Shown here piece after piece: positions 13,940 to 34,984 of a stretch of DNA of 38,870 nt. The DNA comes from Nitrospira sp. (GTDB lineage Bacteria > Nitrospirota > Nitrospiria > Nitrospirales > Nitrospiraceae): contig SWDS01000006.1 in NCBI GenBank assembly GCA_005116745.1, positions 407,389-446,258 of the forward strand, in the 5' to 3' direction. The notes beneath the pieces are model-generated. The model did no database searches. It had not been told where the DNA came from and was given only the letters and a program-made list of their open reading frames with translations. Every line of letters begins with the position of its first letter. The stretch's first letter is position 1. A program made the position numbers and the translations under genes.

Positions 13940-14356
13940 ATTCCAGCCTGGCAGCCCCCATACTCTCCTGTGAAAGAGGTCTTCGCGTAATCAAAAAATG
14001 CTTCCACGATTTCCGTTCGTTGCATGGAGCCAGGATGGTGCTTTCAAGATCCGCACTGGGGATTTCTCGACCTTCTTAAGACAAAACCCGGTCGCAGACA
14101 CCAACTAATTGACGAGAGTAGTTTCCACAAGCAGCTATCTGAATCGCTACTGTATCATTGCGGAAAGAGCAGATGGCTTGAGCCACTCTCCTCACGTAGA
14201 AAGTGAACGATGCCCGGGGTGACGAACACGGCATGCGCGCATGTCTCGCTCGTCATGACTACGCAATTTTTCACACCTGCACCTTGAGTGTTTAGCAAAG
14301 TGTGATGTTGACACATTTGCTTGAGCGGCATAAGGTTCGTCCACCTGACGGAACCC
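13940..14356. other. Intergenic region before the 16-kb cluster, candidate promoter
   Basis: No gene is recognised. CATGCGCGCATG at 14232-14243 is a 12-bp palindrome. An interrupted inverted repeat at 14295-14320 (GCAAAGTGT against ACACATTTGC) overlaps a TTGACA at 14308-14313. With a weak -10 TAAGGT at 14331-14336 (17-nt spacer) this is a possible promoter with a repressor site for the phospholipase D-like gene. Confidence 0.35.
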
Positions 14357-16615
14357 ATGGCCAATATCAGCATCCACGGACGCGTCATCGATGAGCGGGG
14401 GTTTGGCATCGCCGGCTTGACCGTTCGCGCGCTCGACTTCGATCCATTTTTTAGCGAAGACGATGTGCTGGGAATCGGCAAGACAGAAGGCGACGGCACC
14501 TTTCTCATTTCCTACTCGCCGGATGCCTACCGCACCTGGAAAGTCGATCGGAATCCCGACCTCGTCGCCCAAATATTCGGCCCCATCCAGGTAGACCCGT
14601 CACGCTTCGGCACGCGCCTCCTGCACGAAACCCCGGAAGCCAAAGATGTCACCGACTCGAACCACGAGGTCGGCACCATCAGCATCCATCGCAACAACAT
14701 CGAGGGCTGGCTCGTCACTCATACAACGTTAAACCCCGCAGTCGGAGAGCCCGTTGCGCTTTTTCACCACAACCGCATCACGCACCTGATCGACGGAGCC
14801 AAGATGTTCCCCGCAGTGACCGATGCCGCTGAGAGCGCCACCGAATCCATCAACCTGATGACGCTGTTTTTTGACGTCGATAACGGCTTCCTCACCAAGT
14901 TCAAGAGTAGCTTCGACCCGTTGAATCCTCCCTCCACCGGTTGCAAACAGGGAGCGGAAACTTCGCTGGAAGAGGTGCTCAAGAACAAGGGTGGAAAACC
15001 GGTTAATGTGTTGGTGACGAACCTGCCGCTCTCCGCAGAAGACACTGTGACCGAGGTGGCGGAGTTTTTTGCCCAGACGGCGGGCGTGCACACTAATGCG
15101 TTCAACAAGGGCTTCGCCCTGCTGCATGCCAAGGCCATTGTGGTGGATGGGGACCACGCCATCCTCATGGGATCGCCGCTGAAACAGTACTACTTCAACG
15201 ATACCAACCATGCCATCCGCGACGCGCGCCACAAGGGCTCGCTCATGCACGACGTCAACACTGATCTCAAGGGCCCGGCGGTGTCTCACATCGAAAAGAC
15301 GTTCGCGAGCATCTGGAATGCGACCGGCAAACCGATGCTCATCCCTCCGCAGAAGACCTTTCCCGAACTGGCAGTCACGCCTGACGGCGACGTGGCCTCG
15401 GTGCAGGTCCTGCGCACGCTACCAGGAGGCTCGATCAAGCGTGTCAACCCGAGCGATGAAGACCTGCCTTACGGCGAAACCGGCATCCTCGAAGCCTATG
15501 AGCGCGCCATCGCCAACGCCCAGCGCTACATCTACATTGAGAACCAATACTTCACCTCGCCCGAAATCGTCGATGCGCTCATCGCCAGGATGAAGGACAG
15601 CACCAAGCCGCGCCTGCAGATCATCCTGGTCCTCAACCTGCGCCCCGACCTGCCGGGCTACCCGGATCGCCAGATCGACAACGTCAACCAGCTCCGCAGC
15701 GCCGCCAAAACAGGCGGGCATCACCTGGGCGTCTATACCCTCTGGAGCCGATCAGAGAAAGCAGGTAGCGGCGGTGCGGGGAATCCGCGGCGCTACGACG
15801 TGATGCCGGTGTACGTCCACAGTAAGGTCGCCATCATCGACGACGTGTGGGCCACGGCCGGTAGCGCGAACCTCGACGGCACCTCGATGAACTACCACGA
15901 GATCGGCCTGATCATCACCGGCTCCATCCTCGACCGCGCGATCGAAAAGGCGAAGCTCACCAACGATCCAGGCAAATTTCTCTGGGAACTATTCTGGTAT
16001 CTCTTTTTCTTCGTCTTCAAGCAGATCCTGTTCGACCTCAAGACGCTGCTCGTCCTGCTCTTCGTCGCCTACAAACTGATCTTCGACTTCAAGGAGACGC
16101 TGGAGACCATCCGCGAAACGTTGGGCGACGTAGCCGACATTCCCCAACTCATTGCCGACGTCTTCACACGCACCGCCCGACACGCCCTCCCCAGCCGTTC
16201 GCGTCAGCCGTCGCGCAGCGTGGAATTGAACCTGGTGATGTACAGCGGGATTGCCGGCCTGCCGGAGAACGGCGTGGTCAAAGCCTTGCGCCACGAGCTG
16301 TGGCAGGAACACCTGGGGCTGGCCTCGCTGCCGGATCAGCTCAAAACCCTGCCGGCCGATCCGGCATCCTTGACGTGGGTCGCCGAATGGGAACACGCCG
16401 CTACACACCATGTGGATGCCATCAAGAATGACCTGGCGCCGCCGGCCGACCATGCGCCGCACCTGTTGCCTTGGAAGCCGGAGACCGACCCCAAGGAATA
16501 TCTGGCCGCGCTCAAGATCCGCACGTCCACCCTGCGCAACAAGGCGCAGAAGTTCGATTTCAAAACCTGTAAGGTCGACGACAAGAAGGATCTGCTCCCG
16601 TGGCCGATCATCTAG
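14357..16615 (+). CDS. Phospholipase D-like protein with two HKD motifs
   Basis: From the ATG at 14357 (MANISIHG) the product is 752 residues; a TTG at 14321 would add 12 but lies inside the putative promoter. The N-terminus (1-75) looks like a transthyretin/Cna-B-type beta domain (GRVIDERGFGIAGLTVRA). Two HKD motifs define the PLD catalytic pair: HAKAIVVDGDHAILMGS (His257) and HSKVAIIDDVWATAGSANLD (His488). Both keep His, Lys, Asp and the downstream Gly-Ser or Gly-Ser-Ala-Asn, so the enzyme should be active as a phosphodiesterase or transphosphatidylase. A strongly hydrophobic stretch (about 540-585, WYLFFFVFKQILFDLKTLLV) suggests membrane insertion. The next gene starts 16 nt before this stop. 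First gene of the 16-kb cluster. Confidence 0.87.
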   Translation: MANISIHGRVIDERGFGIAGLTVRALDFDPFFSEDDVLGIGKTEGDGTFLISYSPDAYRTWKVDRNPDLVAQIFGPIQVDPSRFGTRLLHETPEAKDVTDSNHEVGTISIHRNNIEGWLVTHTTLNPAVGEPVALFHHNRITHLIDGAKMFPAVTDAAESATESINLMTLFFDVDNGFLTKFKSSFDPLNPPSTGCKQGAETSLEEVLKNKGGKPVNVLVTNLPLSAEDTVTEVAEFFAQTAGVHTNAFNKGFALLHAKAIVVDGDHAILMGSPLKQYYFNDTNHAIRDARHKGSLMHDVNTDLKGPAVSHIEKTFASIWNATGKPMLIPPQKTFPELAVTPDGDVASVQVLRTLPGGSIKRVNPSDEDLPYGETGILEAYERAIANAQRYIYIENQYFTSPEIVDALIARMKDSTKPRLQIILVLNLRPDLPGYPDRQIDNVNQLRSAAKTGGHHLGVYTLWSRSEKAGSGGAGNPRRYDVMPVYVHSKVAIIDDVWATAGSANLDGTSMNYHEIGLIITGSILDRAIEKAKLTNDPGKFLWELFWYLFFFVFKQILFDLKTLLVLLFVAYKLIFDFKETLETIRETLGDVADIPQLIADVFTRTARHALPSRSRQPSRSVELNLVMYSGIAGLPENGVVKALRHELWQEHLGLASLPDQLKTLPADPASLTWVAEWEHAATHHVDAIKNDLAPPADHAPHLLPWKPETDPKEYLAALKIRTSTLRNKAQKFDFKTCKVDDKKDLLPWPII

Positions 16616-19600
16616 TCCAGAACGCCACCGCCGGGATCGGGCGGCTGCTGTCGCACCTCGACATCGTCCAGGGCGATGTCGAGGCGGCGCGCGCGTTTCT
16701 GAAACTGCTGGGCTGGGACCTGCCGCCAGGCCTCGACGACATCGGCTTAGCCGCACTCAACCTCAGCGATTTTCTGACGAAGCTCGACGCAGTCATCGGC
16801 GCGTCCGACGCCGAATGGAACGACGACTTGGCCATGGCGGGCCGCATCGCCGACCTCGCCCTCGCGATCGAAGCACTCACGCGGCAGATTCACGACTTGG
16901 CGCAGACCCTGCCCACCAGACAGGCGTCTTTCGACGACTACGTAGATCGCACGCAGATCCACAAGGAACTCCCGAGACGGCTGTTCGATTTTCTCGCCGC
17001 GAACTTCCTGGCGCAGGCCTCGCCGCTCACCTACGCCGCCCTGCACCTGCTGAACATCATCGATTATCCCTACTACGCCGCTGATCCAACGAAATTTCAG
17101 GTCGAACACGTCCGCGCCACGATCAACTATCACCTCTTCAAGGTGGCGGTGACGAGCCTTGATCAGCTCTTTACCGAGGCCTACGGCTGGCACACGCCCG
17201 ACTTCCAATCGATGACCTTCCTCACCAGGCTGAGCCAGCTGCTGCAAACGCTGGGGCTACGGAGTCGTATCCAACCCCTGAGTCCGCAAGCGCAGGAGGC
17301 CTGGCTGGGACGAGCCGAAACAAGTTCCAACCAACCGCCGCAACTCATCACCTTCCTGCACGAGGAACGCGGCTCCGCATTCGGGGTGCGGTTGGGCCTC
17401 TCGCTCTTCGGCGCCGCTCCCACGTCGGCTGGCGCGAGTGATGCCGGACTCGGCCTCGCCCTCATTATTCAAGGCCGCGCGGAGGGAACGGTCCCCTTCC
17501 CCCGCTTGGAAGACACCCGCATCGAATGGTCTGGCAACGTGGAGGTGTTGAAGCGATTAGCCGTCATCCTCCGTCCTGAACAGGATCTCACCCTGCGCAA
17601 GGGAGCTGGGCTCGCCGATGCTCTCAACGGCCGCTTCGCGCTGGGCCTGCGGCATGGCCAACCGACCGGCGAACTCAAGCCGTTGGTCCGCCTACCCGGA
17701 GGCTCGGCCCTGCGTTATCAGCAGTTTTCCGTCGCAGGCGGCCTCGATGCCTCCTCGGCCACCCGCATGGAGACGTTTGTAGAGATTGCGCTGCTGGGGC
17801 TCCGATTCGACCTGTCGCTCGCAAATGCAGACAACTTCATTCAAGGCACGGTCGGGCGCGAGTCTGTCCAGGCCCCGTTCGATCTCACGTTGCGGTGGAG
17901 CAGCAGAGAGGGACTGTCGTTTTCCGGCAGCGGGGGGCTGCACGTGTCGCTGTCGTTGCAGCAGGCCGTCGGCCCCGTGAAGTTGGATGCGGCACACATC
18001 GGCATCGACGTGGGCGAAAAGGGCATCGACACGGAAACCAGTGTCAACGCCCGCTTGGTGCTCGGCCCAGTCACGGCGACCGTCGAACGGATCGGTGTTA
18101 CCGTCGATCTGTCTTTCCAGGAAGGCAACCTTGGCCTCTTCGGTCTGTCGCCGCGCTTCAAGCCGCCGACGGGCCTGGGCTTGGCGCTTGCGACAGCGGG
18201 GGTGACCGGGGGCGGCTTCCTGGGTTTCGATCCCCAGCGCGCCGAATACAGCGGCATGTTGCAGCTGGAACTGGCCGAGACGATCGCCATTAAGGCCCTG
18301 GGCCTGCTCACTACTCGTCTCCCCGACGGCAGCCGCGGCTATTCCTTGATCGTGATCCTGACCGCCGAAGGCTTCGCGCCGATTCCCGTCGGCTTAGGTT
18401 TCACCCTCACCGGCATCGGTGGATTGGTGGCACTGCATCGGACTGTCCGCACCGACGTGTTGCGCGAGGGCCTCAAGACCGGCACCCTGAACTCGGTGTT
18501 GTTTCCCTCTGATCCGCTCCGGAATGCCCCGCAGATCTTCAGCGACCTCCGCCGCGTATTCCCGCCGACCGCAGGCCGCCATGTGGTCGGGCCGATGGTG
18601 CAATTGCGTTGGGGGAGTCCTACGTTACTCACCCTCGATCTGGCGCTGCTCGTTGAACTGCCCTCGCCGGTTCGGGTCGTGGTCTTAGGCCGTCTGCAAG
18701 TCCTGTTACCGAACCAGACCCATCCGCTCATTCAGATTCGCATGGATGCCTTAGGCGTGCTGGATGTTTCGGCCGAGACCGTGGCGTTGGATGCGACGCT
18801 GTATGACTCCCGGATTCTTCAATTTACGCTGACCGGCGATATGGCGCTTCGCGCGGGCTGGGGGCGTCAGCCACAATTTATCTTGGCGATCGGTGGGTTC
18901 CATCCTCGGTTTGCCCCGCCACCGGGGCTTCCAGTGTTACAACGGCTGGCGCTGCAGCTCGCCGATGGTGACTCGCTCCAGTTACGCTGCCAGGCCTATC
19001 TGGCGGTGACGTCGAATACGGTGCAGTTCGGCGCCCGAGTGGATCTCCATGCAGCCGGCGGCGGGTTCAGCTTTGACGGGATGCTCAGCTTCGATGCGAT
19101 TATTCAGCTGGCACCATTAGCCTTTGAAGTTGACGTCGGTGCGGCCTTGGCGTTGCGGTATCGTGGACGGCTGCTAGTGGGCGTCTCGTTCAAGGGGCGT
19201 CTGGCCGGGCCCACGCCCTGGCAGGTGGAGGGCAAGGCCTCGATCAAGTTGTTGTTCTTCTCGGTGTCGGTGTCCTTCTCACGGACATTCGGGAGCAAGG
19301 CCGCGCCACCGCTGCCGGCGGCGGTGGATGTCGTGGGCGTGATCGCCGCCGCCCTGGCCGACCGGCGCAATTGGAGTGGGGCCGTCCCCCGCAGTAGCGC
19401 CCCGGTGGTGACGATCAGAGAGACCGCCCCACCCACCAACGGACTGCGCGTCCATCCTTGGGCGGAACTGACGCTGCGCCAGCGGATCGCGCCGCTGAAC
19501 AGACACATCACGAAGCTGGGCACGGCACCAATTATCGGCGGGCCCACGACGGTGACGGTCTCGCTCACCGATCGCGCCGGCGCCCAACCCTGGCGGACGA

Positions 19601-19914
19601 CGCCGGTCTCGGAGCCCTTCGCCCTGGCGCAGTATGAAGACCTGCGCGAAGACGAGCAGTTGGCGCAACCGGCGTTTGTGCCCTTACAGGGCGGCCTCAC
19701 CGTGGCGGCCGACGATCTGGCGGTGGACGACGAGCTGGGCCTCGCCGCGCCGATTGCCTACGAGACCGTGCTGATTGATCCGACGCGACCGCCAGAGCGG
19801 CCGAAGCCGGGCTATGTGCTCTCGGCGGCAGTGTTGGCCCGGGTCGCTCCCTTCGGCGCCGCCGGCCAGGCCCCGGCGCGAAAACGACGACGTGCCACCG
19901 CACTCATGGCGTAA
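16600..19914 (+). CDS. Large beta-rich protein, DUF6603-like
   Basis: The 1104-residue protein starts with GTG at 16600, supported by AAGAAGGA ending 9 nt upstream, and overlaps the PLD gene by 16 nt. Residues 1-250 are mainly helical. From about 260 to 930 come long runs of amphipathic, Gly-rich beta strands (GLGLALATAGVTGGGFLGFD, GFTLTGIGGLVALHR, FEVDVGAALALRYRGRLLVG) that I recognise as DUF6603-like. The C-terminal 170 residues are Pro- and Asp-rich and end in a basic tail (KRRRATALM). There is no signal peptide. No biochemical role is known to me; the long hydrophobic-face beta structure could form a solenoid or lipid-binding groove, which is speculation. Confidence 0.8.
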   Translation: MADHLVQNATAGIGRLLSHLDIVQGDVEAARAFLKLLGWDLPPGLDDIGLAALNLSDFLTKLDAVIGASDAEWNDDLAMAGRIADLALAIEALTRQIHDLAQTLPTRQASFDDYVDRTQIHKELPRRLFDFLAANFLAQASPLTYAALHLLNIIDYPYYAADPTKFQVEHVRATINYHLFKVAVTSLDQLFTEAYGWHTPDFQSMTFLTRLSQLLQTLGLRSRIQPLSPQAQEAWLGRAETSSNQPPQLITFLHEERGSAFGVRLGLSLFGAAPTSAGASDAGLGLALIIQGRAEGTVPFPRLEDTRIEWSGNVEVLKRLAVILRPEQDLTLRKGAGLADALNGRFALGLRHGQPTGELKPLVRLPGGSALRYQQFSVAGGLDASSATRMETFVEIALLGLRFDLSLANADNFIQGTVGRESVQAPFDLTLRWSSREGLSFSGSGGLHVSLSLQQAVGPVKLDAAHIGIDVGEKGIDTETSVNARLVLGPVTATVERIGVTVDLSFQEGNLGLFGLSPRFKPPTGLGLALATAGVTGGGFLGFDPQRAEYSGMLQLELAETIAIKALGLLTTRLPDGSRGYSLIVILTAEGFAPIPVGLGFTLTGIGGLVALHRTVRTDVLREGLKTGTLNSVLFPSDPLRNAPQIFSDLRRVFPPTAGRHVVGPMVQLRWGSPTLLTLDLALLVELPSPVRVVVLGRLQVLLPNQTHPLIQIRMDALGVLDVSAETVALDATLYDSRILQFTLTGDMALRAGWGRQPQFILAIGGFHPRFAPPPGLPVLQRLALQLADGDSLQLRCQAYLAVTSNTVQFGARVDLHAAGGGFSFDGMLSFDAIIQLAPLAFEVDVGAALALRYRGRLLVGVSFKGRLAGPTPWQVEGKASIKLLFFSVSVSFSRTFGSKAAPPLPAAVDVVGVIAAALADRRNWSGAVPRSSAPVVTIRETAPPTNGLRVHPWAELTLRQRIAPLNRHITKLGTAPIIGGPTTVTVSLTDRAGAQPWRTTPVSEPFALAQYEDLREDEQLAQPAFVPLQGGLTVAADDLAVDDELGLAAPIAYETVLIDPTRPPERPKPGYVLSAAVLARVAPFGAAGQAPARKRRRATALMA

Positions 19915-30539: not shown

Positions 30540-31019
30540 TTAAAGGCCAAGGTCTGAGAGGCAAGGGTGACCATCAGGACGCCTGCCCAGTGGCCAGTGA
30601 TACTTCCGCTCAGGCTCTGTGATGGGAAGATCATTGATGCTCGCGAGACGCCGCCGCATCAGACCATTGTCGTCAAACTCCCAGTTTTCATTGCCATAGG
30701 ATCGGAACCAATTTCCTGAATCGTCGTGCCACTCGTACGCGAACCGCACAGCGATTCGGTTATCGTGGTATGTCCACAGTTCTTTGATCAAGCGGTAGTC
30801 CAGCTCGTGGCTCCACTTGCGAGCTAAGAACTGAACGATAGCGTCTCGTCCCGTTAGGAACTCTGAACGATTTCGCCACTGACTATCGGCACTGTAGGCC
30901 AACGACACCGTTTCGGGGTTGCGCGTATTCCACGCATCCTCTGCCATGCGAACTTTCTGGGCTGCGGATGCACGATCGAAGGGGGGAAATGGAGGCCTGG
31001 ATTGGTCGAGAGGGCTCAT
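30540..31019 (-). CDS. DUF1348 (NTF2-like fold) protein
   Basis: I choose the ATG at 31019 ([15 protein letters not shown]) because AGAAGG lies 8 nt upstream, giving 159 residues; an upstream start at 31073 would add 18. The sequence matches DUF1348 closely: [18 protein letters not shown]-type N-terminus, [67 protein letters not shown] and the C-terminal [13 protein letters not shown]. These are small cone-shaped NTF2-fold proteins of unknown substrate. It is the last gene of the minus-strand set behind the sigma-54 promoter. Confidence 0.9.
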
Positions 31020-31099: not shown

Positions 31100-31459
31100 T
31101 TAGCCGTGGTAATAGCGCTCTTTGACGATCTTGCCGTCGTGCCAGTCAGTTTTGACGGCTTGTTCGAGCCTAATGGTTTCTCCGTTCTTCAATTTCAAGG
31201 TCAGCACTGCATCATAGAAACTGGTGTTTCAGACGATGGCTACAGCACCGATGGCGTAGCTGACAAACGCCGCCACTCCAATGGTTTCTCTGAACTTGTC
31301 TAGTCTTTCAATGGAGGCTTGTTTGCCTATGATGGGTGGCTGATTGCCTTCCTGTGTGACGACCGAATCCGCAAAGTAGATCTTCTGCCCCTCGGTCATT
31401 CGCCCCTCCGTCAGGATGCCCAACATTTCTTGCACTGTGTCCTGTATCTGCTTGCTCAT
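31100..31459 (-). pseudogene. NTF2/SnoaL-like gene interrupted by an in-frame TGA
   Basis: Translation from 31459 gives MSKQIQDTVQEMLGILTEGR and continues through FADSVV and IIGKQASIERLDKFRE to IGAVAIV, where a TGA (31229-31231) occurs at codon 77. The same frame then continues NTSFYDAVLTLKLKNGETIR, LEQAVKTDWHDGKIVKERYY and HG to a TAA at 31100-31102. The downstream part is clearly the second half of an NTF2/SnoaL-like domain, so the unbroken gene would encode about 119 residues. GGA to TGA (Gly) is the simplest explanation. It could also be a sequencing error or readthrough; no selenocysteine signal was looked for beyond inspection. GAGAAATCG precedes the ATG. Confidence 0.8.
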
Positions 31460-31520: not shown

Positions 31521-32120
31521 TTATGGGTTCATCCGAGACAGTTGAGTCTCGAGCTTGGCAATCCGGCTCTTGAGCGGACCCACATACGCTTCGACCTCTT
31601 CCGCCGAATATCGTGGCGTGATGTACTTGGGACAGTTCCAGTCGAAGGAGACGACATCGATAAAGACGAGCCGCTCAACACTCGACTGCATTGTTTGATC
31701 AGCGAGTTGTGCGACGAGTTCTGGATGGGCGCGAGCATCTTCCACACGGGCATGACCAAGAATCTTCAAGCGCGCTCGGTTCTGGTAATCCATGAGAAAC
31801 AGTGCCACACGATCGTTCACTGAAACGTTGCCGGTCGTGAGCAGCTGTCGATTGCCTTTGTAGTCGGCAAAGGCCAGCGTCGTCTCGTTGACCATCCGCA
31901 AGAATCCCTTGGGCCCGCCACGATGCTGAATATAGGGCCACCCGGTTTCGCTGATCGAACCCAGATAGAAGCTGTCCCGCTCTGCAAGAAACTCAGCTTC
32001 GGCTTGTCCCAGCGGGTCTCGTTCGGGAGCCCCTGCAATCTTCATGGCCCTTCCGTAGTAGTGGTTCTGTGCTCGGCGTACGGCTTCCGTCATCGCCAGC
32101 TCCAAGTATTTCAACGCCAT
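31521..32120 (-). CDS. Pyridoxamine 5'-phosphate oxidase-like flavin protein
   Basis: From the ATG at 32120 (MALKYLEL), with AGGGAG upstream, the product is 199 residues. The split-barrel fold is indicated by ERDSFYLGSISETGWPYIQH, GFLRMVNETTLAFADYKGNR and VALFLMDYQNRARLKILGHA, which match the PNPOx-like superfamily that binds FMN or F420. Residues 20-45 (YYGRAMKIAGAPERDPLG) resemble the leader of the PNPOx-like subgroup often paired with stress genes. A C-terminal helix (LKSRIAKLETQLSRM) may mediate dimerisation. It lies 66 nt after the DsrE-like gene, in the same transcription unit. The substrate is unknown. Confidence 0.87.
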   Translation of the reverse strand: MALKYLELAMTEAVRRAQNHYYGRAMKIAGAPERDPLGQAEAEFLAERDSFYLGSISETGWPYIQHRGGPKGFLRMVNETTLAFADYKGNRQLLTTGNVSVNDRVALFLMDYQNRARLKILGHARVEDARAHPELVAQLADQTMQSSVERLVFIDVVSFDWNCPKYITPRYSAEEVEAYVGPLKSRIAKLETQLSRMNP

Positions 32121-32186: not shown

Positions 32187-32561
32187 TCAGAACACGATCG
32201 TATTCCACCCCTCGGCTACGTACCGGCGCAGGCTCAACAGCCCCGCTGTCCCAGCGAGGGTATGGTCTTTCACAATCGGCACACCGCAAGCCTTGACGCT
32301 TTCTGTTGCCCCAAAGACCTCGGCGCAACCGCACGAGGCCCCTTGCACGACATCACGCACCGAATTGTAGAGGCCATTGGCTGGGTGAGAGAGTTTGGTG
32401 AGCTCAGCCGGCCAACGAGTTCCGGTACCATTGAAGACGACAGCGACTTCATCGCCTTTCTGTTTACATTCAGAGGCGAGGGCCAGCGCGTTAAAGACTC
32501 GCCCAAGCGCTTCCTCTGAACCGCTCTTCGGATCGGACAGAATGATGATCGCTGTTTTCAT
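32187..32561 (-). CDS. DsrE-family protein, first gene behind the sigma-54 promoter
   Basis: The ATG at 32561 (MKTAIIILSDPKSGSEEALG), with AAGGAG 6 nt upstream, gives 124 residues. The fold pattern, with an N-terminal strand, Ala/Leu-rich helix (RVFNALALASECKQKGDEVA) and VVFNGTGTRWPAEL, matches the DsrE/DsrF-like family. Cys77 and Cys79 (GASCGCAEVFGA) and a later Cys in SVKACGVP are candidate thiols for sulfur relay or redox chemistry. The fold is known from sulfur-transfer proteins, but many members have no proven role. It heads the minus-strand set. Confidence 0.88.
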   Translation of the reverse strand: MKTAIIILSDPKSGSEEALGRVFNALALASECKQKGDEVAVVFNGTGTRWPAELTKLSHPANGLYNSVRDVVQGASCGCAEVFGATESVKACGVPIVKDHTLAGTAGLLSLRRYVAEGWNTIVF

Positions 32562-32655
32562 GGGTTCTCCTTGGATGGAATGACACTCACGAGATTGTGG
32601 ATGTCTGTTTGCCTTGTTGTGTCCTACAGATCGATCGCGATATTTATCCGTCATG

Positions 32656-32671
32656 GCAAGGCCGGTGCCAC
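32656..32671 (-). promoter_or_regulatory. Sigma-54 promoter of the DsrE operon
   Basis: On the minus strand TGGCACCGGCCTTGCC has the -24 (TGGCAC) and -12 (TTGC) elements with GG and GC separated by exactly 10 nt. The predicted transcription start is near 32645, leaving a leader of about 84 nt before the DsrE-like gene. Confidence 0.8.
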
Positions 32672-32769
32672 GCGTCACGACGATCAGTGAAGCAAGATAA
32701 AGCGCTTGAGAAACAGGCAGTTGCCGCACTATTAGCGGCAAGATGAAGCAGAACGAAAGAGAGACGCTT

Positions 32770-32803
32770 CCACGAAATGTCGTGGAGCTACGATATCTCG
32801 TGG
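32770..32803. promoter_or_regulatory. Two palindromic enhancer-like sites
   Basis: CCACGA-N4-TCGTGG (32770-32785, perfect) and CTACGA-N4-TCGTGG (32788-32803, one mismatch) are spaced 18 bp centre to centre. They lie between the stop codon of the GAF activator gene and the sigma-54 promoter, about 130-150 bp upstream of the predicted start site, the usual distance for enhancer-binding proteins. Binding by the adjacent activator is inferred. Confidence 0.7.
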
Positions 32804-32825: not shown

Positions 32826-34403
32826 CTAGGCGGTGGGGAGAGGTTTCTTGATGCCGAGCTTTTGCATCCGGGATCGAAGGGTGTTGGGATGGAGACCAAG
32901 TCGAGTCGCGGCGCCCTGTTTCCCTTCGATGACCCAGTTCATGTCTTGAAGGATGCGGAGGATGTGGCCTCGTTCCACCTCTTCCAGTGAATCGGCGACT
33001 GGCAACAGCGGGGTGGATTTCCCCTGAAGCATCACCTCGTCGATCTGAAGCATCGGTCCGTTCGCGAGAATCATGGCCCGTTCTATGACATTTTCCAACT
33101 CCCGGATGTTACCAGGCCAGGAGTATTTCATGAGGCGATCCATAGTCGATTGCGACACCCCGTCAATCTTCTTGCCCATCTTGTGTGAGAACTTGGCGAC
33201 AAATCGGTTGACCAAGAGTGGGATATCAGAGGCACGGGCGGACAGAGGTGGCACCTCGATCGGGAACACGTTCAGTCGATACAAAAGATCGGCCCGGAAG
33301 GAACCGGCCTTCACCGCTGCATGAAGGTCTCGATTCGTCGCAGCAATGACTCGGACATCGACTTTGGTTGAATGGCCGCTGCCGACCCGTTCAACCTCCC
33401 TTTCTTGTAGCACCCGTAGAAGCTTGACCTGTGCGTCCAGCGGTAACTCTCCGACTTCGTCCAGGAAGATGGTCCCACCGTCCGCCAACTCAAATCGGCC
33501 GATGCGGCGTTGTAATGCTCCCGTGAACGATCCCTTCTCATGGCCAAAGAGCTCACTTTCGACCAGGTTTGCGGGGATCGCTCCGCAGTTGACCTTCACT
33601 AGCGAACGAGCTTTTCGCGGGCTCAGGTTGTGAATGGCCCTGGCCAGCAGTTCTTTCCCGGTTCCTGTATCTCCACGAATCAGGACCGTCGAATCCATCG
33701 GTGCGACCTGTTCGATCTGTCGGAGCACAGCCTTGATGCTCGGGCTCTCACCGACGATCTCCTCAAAATTATGGTCAAGTTTGATCTCCTCACGAAGATA
33801 GAGATTCTCCGCCTCAAGTCGAGTTTTGAGCTGTGCAACTTCTGTAAAGAGTTGCGCGTTCTTGATCGCAATGGCGGCTTGGTTGGCAAAGATCGCCAAG
33901 CGCTCGAACTCTTGTTCGCTCAATGGCCGTCGCCCGAACATCGCAATCACGCCGAGCAGTTCCCAGCGGAACTTCAGCGGGTAGCCGGCAAAGGAGCGGA
34001 GGCCGTTATCCGTCATCCACTGTTTGTTTGGCAGGCGGTCGTCGCCGAGCACATCGTTCGTCTGCATCGGTCCAAAGCCTTGCGCAATCTTTCCGATCTT
34101 GAGCGCCCCCAGCGGAATACGGCGATATTCTCCGTTGAGGTCGGTGTAGAGCCCCGTGCTTGCTTCAAGGTGCAGGCAACGAGCCCGATTCGTGCAGTTT
34201 GCCGCTTTGTAACACTCGGCACAGAGATCGCCGGGACCTAACAGCCAGATACGGGCGAAGGCGCCATCGAGTTCATCTACGAGTCCTTGCGTGATGGTAG
34301 TCAGGACTTGCTGCAAATCCAGACTCGATGCCATCTGGAGGGTAATCTGCTCCAATGCGTCGTGAGATGGGTGGGAAGGAACCGAAGAATGGGGATTGTC
34401 CAT
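32826..34403 (-). CDS. GAF/AAA+/Fis sigma-54-dependent activator
   Basis: The 525-residue protein has an N-terminal GAF domain (about 18-185), a linker, an AAA+ sigma-54 interaction domain and a C-terminal Fis-type helix-turn-helix (KQGAATRLGLHPNTLRSRMQ). Walker A is GDTGTGKE (244-251); the sigma-54 loop is GSFTGA (291-296), a tolerated Ala-to-Ser variant of GAFTGA; Walker B ends Asp315-Glu316. The GAF domain contains Cys61, Cys64, Cys70 and Cys76 (CxxCx5Cx5C), which could bind a metal or Fe-S cluster or sense redox. The architecture resembles FhlA and NorR. Enhancer-like sites and a sigma-54 promoter downstream point to the DsrE operon as target. Confidence 0.94.
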   Translation of the reverse strand: MDNPHSSVPSHPSHDALEQITLQMASSLDLQQVLTTITQGLVDELDGAFARIWLLGPGDLCAECYKAANCTNRARCLHLEASTGLYTDLNGEYRRIPLGALKIGKIAQGFGPMQTNDVLGDDRLPNKQWMTDNGLRSFAGYPLKFRWELLGVIAMFGRRPLSEQEFERLAIFANQAAIAIKNAQLFTEVAQLKTRLEAENLYLREEIKLDHNFEEIVGESPSIKAVLRQIEQVAPMDSTVLIRGDTGTGKELLARAIHNLSPRKARSLVKVNCGAIPANLVESELFGHEKGSFTGALQRRIGRFELADGGTIFLDEVGELPLDAQVKLLRVLQEREVERVGSGHSTKVDVRVIAATNRDLHAAVKAGSFRADLLYRLNVFPIEVPPLSARASDIPLLVNRFVAKFSHKMGKKIDGVSQSTMDRLMKYSWPGNIRELENVIERAMILANGPMLQIDEVMLQGKSTPLLPVADSLEEVERGHILRILQDMNWVIEGKQGAATRLGLHPNTLRSRMQKLGIKKPLPTA

Positions 34404-34547: not shown

Positions 34548-34760
34548 TCACAGGTCTTCTGGTGTAAGACCTGTCACCTTGGAGAGGCGGGCCAACATAC
34601 GCGGACCGATCTCGTCGCGATCATGAAAAGCGAAAACGACATCGGGCCATCCAGTCCGTTGTAGAATTTTATGAGAACCGGTCGTTCGTTTGATCTGCCA
34701 ACCGATGCGGAGGAGTCCGGAGAGAACGCGAGAAGCTTGAGTCGACGGCCAACGGCTCAT
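34548..34760 (-). CDS. hicA: HicA-like toxin (YcfA family)
   Basis: The 70-residue protein has the HicA pattern: an N-terminal helix, RIGWQIKRTTGSHKILQR with the conserved catalytic His (His30), and a C-terminal strand and helix (RMLARLSKVTGLTPEDL). HicA proteins are mRNA interferases with a double-stranded-RNA-binding-like fold. Its ATG overlaps the stop of the upstream antitoxin gene. It is slightly shorter than, but within range of, the family. Confidence 0.82.
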   Translation of the reverse strand: MSRWPSTQASRVLSGLLRIGWQIKRTTGSHKILQRTGWPDVVFAFHDRDEIGPRMLARLSKVTGLTPEDL

Positions 34761-34984
34761 GCCGCAATAAACGAGACGTTCAGCAGCTCCTCAGGTACCG
34801 CCTCGTCATGTTCGAGGCGATCGGCCATTGCACGAAGAGCCAAGGCTTGGACAGCCGCAAGCGCAGCACCTTTCGTTTGCCCATAGGCCATCACGCCAGG
34901 GAGTGACGGGACCTCGCCAATCCAGCGGCCATCTTCCTCTTGTTCTAACTCGATTTTGAATTGAGTAACCTTCGCCATAAGCAT
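34757..34984 (-). CDS. hicB: HicB-like antitoxin
   Basis: The 75-residue product (possibly 73 if it starts at the second Met, 34978) has the HicB-type fold: FKIELEQEEDGRWIGEVPSL, PGVMAYGQTKGAALAAVQAL and ALRAM. It lacks the C-terminal DNA-binding domain of longer HicB proteins, as is common for partners of YcfA-type toxins. The 4-nt ATGA overlap with the toxin gene supports a functional pair. An inverted repeat lies just upstream. Confidence 0.82.
   Translation of the reverse strand: MLMAKVTQFKIELEQEEDGRWIGEVPSLPGVMAYGQTKGAALAAVQALALRAMADRLEHDEAVPEELLNVSFIAA

Follow-up and report, generated by a model that had tools for sequence, protein, structure and literature searches.

We report that the window (the whole 38,870-nucleotide Nitrospira sp. 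stretch analysed, whose numbering is used throughout) carries what we consider, at a probability of roughly 0.87, to be a self-contained one-component sigma-54 circuit consisting of an activator, a tandem operator, a promoter and a local operon. All of its features lie on the minus strand, in the order activator gene, two tandem palindromes, GG-N10-GC promoter and operon:

32826 to 34403, minus strand: GAF-AAA+-HTH_8 one-component sigma-54 activator, 525 aa (Pfam)
33864 to 34319, minus strand: GAF sensor domain of the activator, residues 29-180 (Pfam and AF2 model)
34176 to 34223, minus strand: four-cysteine motif C61-X2-C64-X5-C70-X5-C76 followed by LHL, inside the GAF domain (alignment of relatives)
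33255 to 33758, minus strand: AAA+ sigma-54 interaction domain of the activator, residues 216-383, with a GSFTGA loop (Pfam; loop from translation)
32856 to 32990, minus strand: Fis-type HTH of the activator, residues 472-516, recognition region HPNTLRSRMQKLGI (Pfam and alignment)
32788 to 32803, minus strand: predicted operator site 1, promoter-distal, CCACGAGATATCGTAG (motif search, conservation)
32770 to 32785, minus strand: predicted operator site 2, promoter-proximal, CCACGACATTTCGTGG (motif search, conservation)
32655 to 32670, minus strand: predicted sigma-54 -24/-12 promoter TGGCACCGGCCTTGCC, with GG at 32668-32669 and GC at 32656-32657 (consensus match, conservation)
32187 to 32561, minus strand: DsrE/DsrF-fold protein, 124 aa (weak Pfam match, motif, AF2, VIA)
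31521 to 32120, minus strand: PNPOx-type split-barrel protein, 199 aa (PF01243, 43.5 bits, cut-off 28.1)
31100 to 31459, minus strand: NTF2/SnoaL-like gene with an in-frame TGA at 31229-31231 (translation; intact relatives)
30540 to 31019, minus strand: DUF1348 protein, 159 aa (PF07080, 223.7 bits, cut-off 22.1)

Transcription would start near 32644. Directly 5' of the activator gene, at 34548-34984, lie a HicA toxin (PF07927) and a UPF0150-like partner, possibly HicB, that scored below cut-off. Elsewhere in the window, a large DUF6603 protein (16600-19914, 438.5 bits) adjoins a PLD-like protein (14321-16615).

Scored against CCACGA-N4-TCGTGG, CCACGAAATGTCGTGG at 32770-32785 had no mismatch and CTACGATATCTCGTGG at 32788-32803 had one, and the two tandem palindromes start 18 bp apart. 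The minus-strand GG-N10-GC match at 32655-32670 differed from the full consensus used at two positions, and its -24 element lies 99 bp from the nearer palindrome. These coordinates and spacings bear out the sequence-only reading, which had placed two palindromes 18 bp apart between the GAF activator gene and a GG-N10-GC promoter. However, neither element is rare alone: the window held 6 single palindromes with up to two mismatches (2.99 expected) and 10 promoter matches (7.41 expected), while genome-wide there were 16 single palindromes with up to one mismatch vs. 13 for a reversed control. We therefore rejected a single-palindrome regulon in the window's genome as mostly chance. The only other exact site in that genome (C6:586854, L123) had no match to the activator or the operon proteins within ~4 kb, and seven exact single sites (L085, L088, L096, L099, L105, L106 and L109), none of them within 250 bp of an activator, were likewise set aside as chance. 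When a regulon beyond the local operon was sought through the tandem pattern, the window's genome contained one such site, which is this locus.

Across related genomes the tandem arrangement was far from chance. Searching relatives for the palindrome, a check proposed together with the original claim, recovered the tandem pattern, with up to three mismatches, in 44 of 175 family genomes, whereas the reversed control gave 0 of 175. For single exact sites with AT at the centre, the corresponding counts were 49 and 2 of 175. All 12 orthologous loci retrieved through the activator (72-94% identity) carried the pair and the promoter with a gap of 98-99 bp, as did 29 of 32 activators within loci fetched by DsrE, where the gap was 97-100 bp. 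For both counts, the pair had to be spaced 18 bp with up to three mismatches and the promoter had to score at least 12 of 14.5 within a window of 95-103 bp only; the two sets overlap in genomes. From the 79 DsrE-fetched loci, we counted only activator matches of at least 59% that reached the end of the HTH (32 matches in 31 loci), and the remaining loci had either no such activator neighbour in the retrieved stretch or a divergent relative. The three misses were L179 (activator 69%), which had no pair, L176, which had a single site, and L144, with four mismatches. We note that several family genomes, e.g., G030, G114, G016 and G012, encode the DsrE protein with no tandem operator.

In a wider set of 42 regions, where the promoter search covered 40-169 bp, 39 had a gap of 97-100 bp; in L120 the top-scoring promoter was at 132 bp instead. 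Forty of these regions had up to three mismatches over the pair, compared with seven in the best of 840 shuffles of real intergenic regions. Because this set was partly selected by motif (L084-L122 were fetched that way), linkage is shown by the protein-fetched counts and not by these regions. Column identity over 27 regions of equal spacing was 0.84 and 0.89 for the two sites and 0.88 for the promoter, vs. 0.61 for the spacer; the promoter had the GG-N10-GC core within a TGGCA...TTGC surround, and its GG and TTGC were invariant in all 27. Two loci were unusual in other ways. In L115 (G158), two activator-operator-promoter-DsrE units sit adjacent to one another, 3.3 kb apart. A Nitrospira-type unit (activator 75%, DsrE 88%) also occurs in L149, whose contig is labelled Verrucomicrobiaceae and may be mis-binned.

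The activator matched GAF (PF01590, 44.7 bits, cut-off 22.4), Sigma54_activat (PF00158, 245 bits, cut-off 20.2) and, at its C-terminus, HTH_8 (PF02954, 27.1 bits, cut-off 22), and its list of Pfam domains contained no receiver domain. Judged by these domains and its loop, it is a one-component sigma-54 enhancer-binding protein of the GAF type. The portion of a published Desulfovibrio analysis available to us lists GSFTGA among the GAFTGA variants expected to retain function (PMC4641369). An AF2 model of the GAF region (residues 1-215) had a mean pLDDT of 82.9, with lower values in the four-cysteine loop (block means of 65 and 81). The C-X2-C-X5-C-X5-C-LHL motif was kept in all 39 sequences of at least 70% identity (the window protein and 38 others), counting only distinct, stop-free, near-full-length relatives as alignment rows. 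More distantly, the four cysteines were complete in 4 of 11 relatives of 44-47% identity (L185, L043, L194 and L044); six of the other seven had the first two only, and L188 had none. We infer that the four-cysteine GAF domain could act as a metal- or thiol-based switch.

In other Nitrospira, including N. moscoviensis, such a distant relative (44-47% identical to the activator in the 11 aligned rows) belongs to a sister circuit, in which it is transcribed divergently from the operon. All eight Nitrospira-type divergent loci (L146, L162, L164, L167, L169, L170, L174 and L175) have an operator of two ACGA-N4-TCGT sites spaced 17 bp, with a GG-N10-GC promoter 66-67 bp away. Operator and HTH change together between the two circuits. 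In the N. moscoviensis locus L174, the order is CMD/AhpD-like, isochorismatase-like, DsrE, PNPOx, periplasmic binding protein and DUF1348. L174 is one of two N. moscoviensis copies, and its divergent activator (L174:1725-3310) is split over two frames, with pieces of 48 and 45% identity. In the Planctomycetota loci, as in L043 and L044, the sister geometry was relaxed or missing. L188 had a site spacing of 17 bp and a promoter gap of 70 bp with one mismatch; L185 had two sites 23 bp apart and no scored promoter; L194 had two weak sites and L199 none. L043 had one exact and one weaker site, and L044 had several, one pair being 17 bp apart, with no scored promoter in either.

The window's genome encodes RpoN (TIGR02395, 434.3 bits, cut-off 277.35). 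It also contains an amoA-family gene (PF02461) and one nxrA homolog and is therefore very probably that of a comammox Nitrospira. Comammox Nitrospira are difficult to culture, and there have been few experiments on their gene regulation. Nitrospira MAGs were the closest named relatives, and two copies of the DsrE protein occur in N. moscoviensis.

The anatomy, conservation, rigid spacing, linkage and presence of rpoN were all observed directly, and the original claim of a complete local sigma-54 circuit gains strong comparative support from the conserved tandem operator, its rigid spacing, its linkage to the activator clade, the sister circuit and rpoN. In the mechanism we propose by analogy, the activator would bind the two palindromes just behind its own gene as dimers that assemble into an active AAA+ ring. 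Through DNA looping, the bound activator would then contact sigma-54 RNA polymerase waiting at TGGCACCGGCCTTGCC, ~99 bp downstream, and its ATP hydrolysis would open the promoter of the DsrE-PNPOx-(NTF2)-DUF1348 operon.

The operon itself was less constant than the elements predicted to control it. Immediately behind the promoter, 30 of the 42 regions have DsrE, four a YHS-like gene, three a MOSC-like gene, one an alpha/beta hydrolase gene and two some other gene; of the remaining two, one was too short for a first-gene call and the other, L179, had no site. The YHS label comes from one Pfam scan below cut-off (L084) and the MOSC label from one above cut-off (L098), with the rest assigned by visible similarity. 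Because the first gene varies, it is the unit of activator, operator and promoter that is stable. The description of the operon as DsrE-led held in that the predicted model has a DsrE fold and that DsrE leads in 30 of 42 regions, but DsrE does not always come first.

The match of the DsrE-like protein to PF02635 spans the full length at an E-value of 0.0017 and 18.9 bits, under the cut-off of 22.7. It differs from the DsrE/DsrF/YchN/TusBCD fold family in this low sequence score and in an SCGCA-x-VFG motif, including C77 and C79, that was invariant in 28 aligned sequences. A PDB sequence search with the DsrE profile returned nothing usable (best E 0.21). Its AF2 model (pLDDT 94.1) gave a VIA Z of 13.1 to 3mc3 (109 residues, rmsd 2.1), 12.3 to YchN (1jx7) and 12.0 to a further chain, and the best Foldseek E-value was 1.5e-3. 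The first ten chains, mostly of the DsrE/DsrF/YchN/TusBCD fold family, scored 10.7-13.1, and the next, the first unrelated chain, scored 6.2; the predicted model thus confirms the DsrE fold.

Of the four genes said to be controlled, DsrE-like, PNPOx and DUF1348 stood, but the NTF2-like gene is interrupted by its in-frame TGA in the window's genome. Matches of an intact relative of the latter to SnoaL families were weak and under cut-off. In the near relative L031 this reading frame likewise appears disrupted, and other relatives have intact copies. Other irregular operons included L037:5216-6950, where an in-frame stop interrupts the DsrE gene and an intervening alpha/beta hydrolase gene separates it from the sigma-54 promoter, and L033:1267-1641, where an apparent deletion creates an open frame from the DsrE start into PNPOx. 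For DUF1348, the part of a fungal study available to us reports that expressing such a protein in Neurospora raised cercosporin resistance in 11 of 27 transformants tested, and that disrupting the gene in Cercospora had no effect (PMC4608573).

The partner genes (AhpD-like, isochorismatase-like, haloalkane-dehalogenase-like hydrolase and DUF1348) would indicate oxidant or electrophile detoxification at least as much as sulfur, and such detoxification seems likelier than a sulfur-specific stress response as the candidate role. Our tentative reading, which we place somewhat below even odds, is that the trigger acts on the GAF domain, most likely via the four cysteines as a metal or thiol site, and that the likeliest task of the operon is to remove a reactive oxidant or electrophile.

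Other explanations of the palindromes must be weighed against a DNA operator for the adjoining activator. They could work as RNA, terminating or attenuating transcription downstream of the activator gene, in line with their position right after its stop codon and with the folding of a 71-nt stretch at -17.9 kcal/mol (shuffle mean -10.43, z -3.33). As in any palindrome, most regions also had Watson-Crick pairing at the inner arm pairs 3-6, at site 1 in 29-37 of 40 and at site 2 in 36-40 of 40. However, no terminator-like site was called there, and pair 2-15 of site 1 was Watson-Crick in only 16 of 40 regions, or 20 of 40 including 4 G-U pairs. Moreover, all 40 regions retain both the A and the T at the centre of what would be the loop of site 2, the promoter lies 97-100 bp away in 39 of 42 regions, a constancy that a terminator does not need, and the sister-circuit sites lie upstream of a divergent activator, all of which makes a role as RNA very improbable. 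Hardly more plausible is binding by another, unlinked regulator while the activator works elsewhere. There are 20 matches to the activator in the window's genome, and binding of the activator to the palindromes is a prediction, but the operator travels with this activator clade and differs along with the HTH in the sister circuit, and the seven exact single sites lacking an activator within 250 bp had no good sigma-54 promoter (best 11 of 14.5).

Two further alternatives accept the circuit and differ in its output, and we regard each as unlikely, though clearly less so than those just described. In line with the redox or reactive-sulfur stress that the sequence-only reading suggested, the output could be a sulfur-trafficking response to sulfide, polysulfide or persulfide, which would suit the DsrE fold, its invariant C77 and C79 and its first place in most regions. 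Yet other regions begin with YHS-like, MOSC-like, hydrolase or other genes, the L174 sister operon begins with AhpD-like and isochorismatase-like hydrolase genes, and no sulfur-oxidation enzyme was named among the operon proteins scanned. A catabolic operon for the use of organic nitrogen or halogenated compounds is suggested by three nearest matches: UrtA for the periplasmic binding protein of L174 (TIGR03407, 94.4 bits, cut-off 492.75), biuret amidohydrolase for its hydrolase (43.8 bits, cut-off 370) and haloalkane dehalogenase for the alpha/beta hydrolase of L098 (116.8 bits, cut-off 241). Still, all three scores fall far under the curated cut-offs, and the window operon has no transporter or hydrolase gene.

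The same motif search also revealed the palindrome class in front of a different target. In other Nitrospiraceae (genera g24 and g20), two sites 34 bp apart lie between a paralogous sigma-54 activator and nxrA:

L059, L061 and L215-L222: nxrA-linked sites spaced 34 bp (motif search)
L094, 4329-4344 and 4363-4378: nxrA-linked sites spaced 34 bp (motif search)

This pattern occurred in 10 of 175 genomes, four of them with three mismatches, and the paralogous activator adjoined it in all 10. The fetched stretch reached nxrA in nine; L059 ends too early, and L089, of the same place, shows the nxrA start. A GG-N10-GC promoter (TGGCA-N7-TGCA) followed 123-126 bp after the first site in all six nxrA-linked loci inspected. 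The nxrA-side activators are 50-51% identical to the window activator over AAA+/HTH and likewise precede sites of this palindrome class and a GG-N10-GC promoter, but they lack the four-cysteine motif in the two that were aligned, their sites are spaced 34 bp rather than 18 and their target is nxrA. Sigma-54-dependent regulators adjoining nxrAB in Nitrospira appear in the portions of two papers available to us (PMC6606698, PMC7522533), which give no operator. The presence of the same site class before nxrA in another genus makes it a candidate binding site for such regulators. By contrast, N. moscoviensis has five copies of the nxrA protein (87-88% identity), which equals the number of nxrAB copies given in the accessible part of PMC6606698, and no palindrome with up to two mismatches lay within 1500 bp upstream of any of the five. 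It was also absent upstream of nxrA in the window genome's own copy and in the second copy of G096. Genome G095 carries both the 18-bp and the 34-bp site pairs. A speculative possibility, which we think improbable, is that CNACGA-N4-TCGTNG forms a shared enhancer code of a radiating FhlA-like activator family in Nitrospiraceae, in which one branch senses reactive nitrogen or oxygen species via a cluster of four GAF cysteines and controls interchangeable detoxification genes while another drives nxrA, with cross-talk possible where both occur. If true, cross-talk in a G095-type genome would tie stress defence to nitrite oxidation.

The predicted geometry of operator, promoter and activator is near base-pair-exact and thus offers a ready reporter for a heterologous host, and the predicted circuit makes the role of the four-cysteine GAF sensor testable. 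The literature we searched, in the portions available, contains no description of this operator, and our claim is limited to that literature. In the part of PMC4641369 available to us, local sigma-54 regulons of Desulfovibrio likewise have an activator gene near its own sigma-54 promoter and a motif derived by comparing orthologous loci; they differ in belonging to other organisms, and that text does not mention DsrE. The window activator shares the domain order GAF-AAA+-HTH with the one-component sigma-54 activators of the FhlA/NifA/NorR type. Its nearest NCBIfam models were the formate hydrogenlyase activator PRK15429 (432 bits), NifA (397.8) and NorR (369.5), but each score is under the curated equivalog cut-off (830, 528.85 and 476, respectively). 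The linked genes differ between those systems and ours, and the comparison is one of domain order and profile scores. It is well supported that the circuit is a further GAF-type sigma-54 system of an already known sort.
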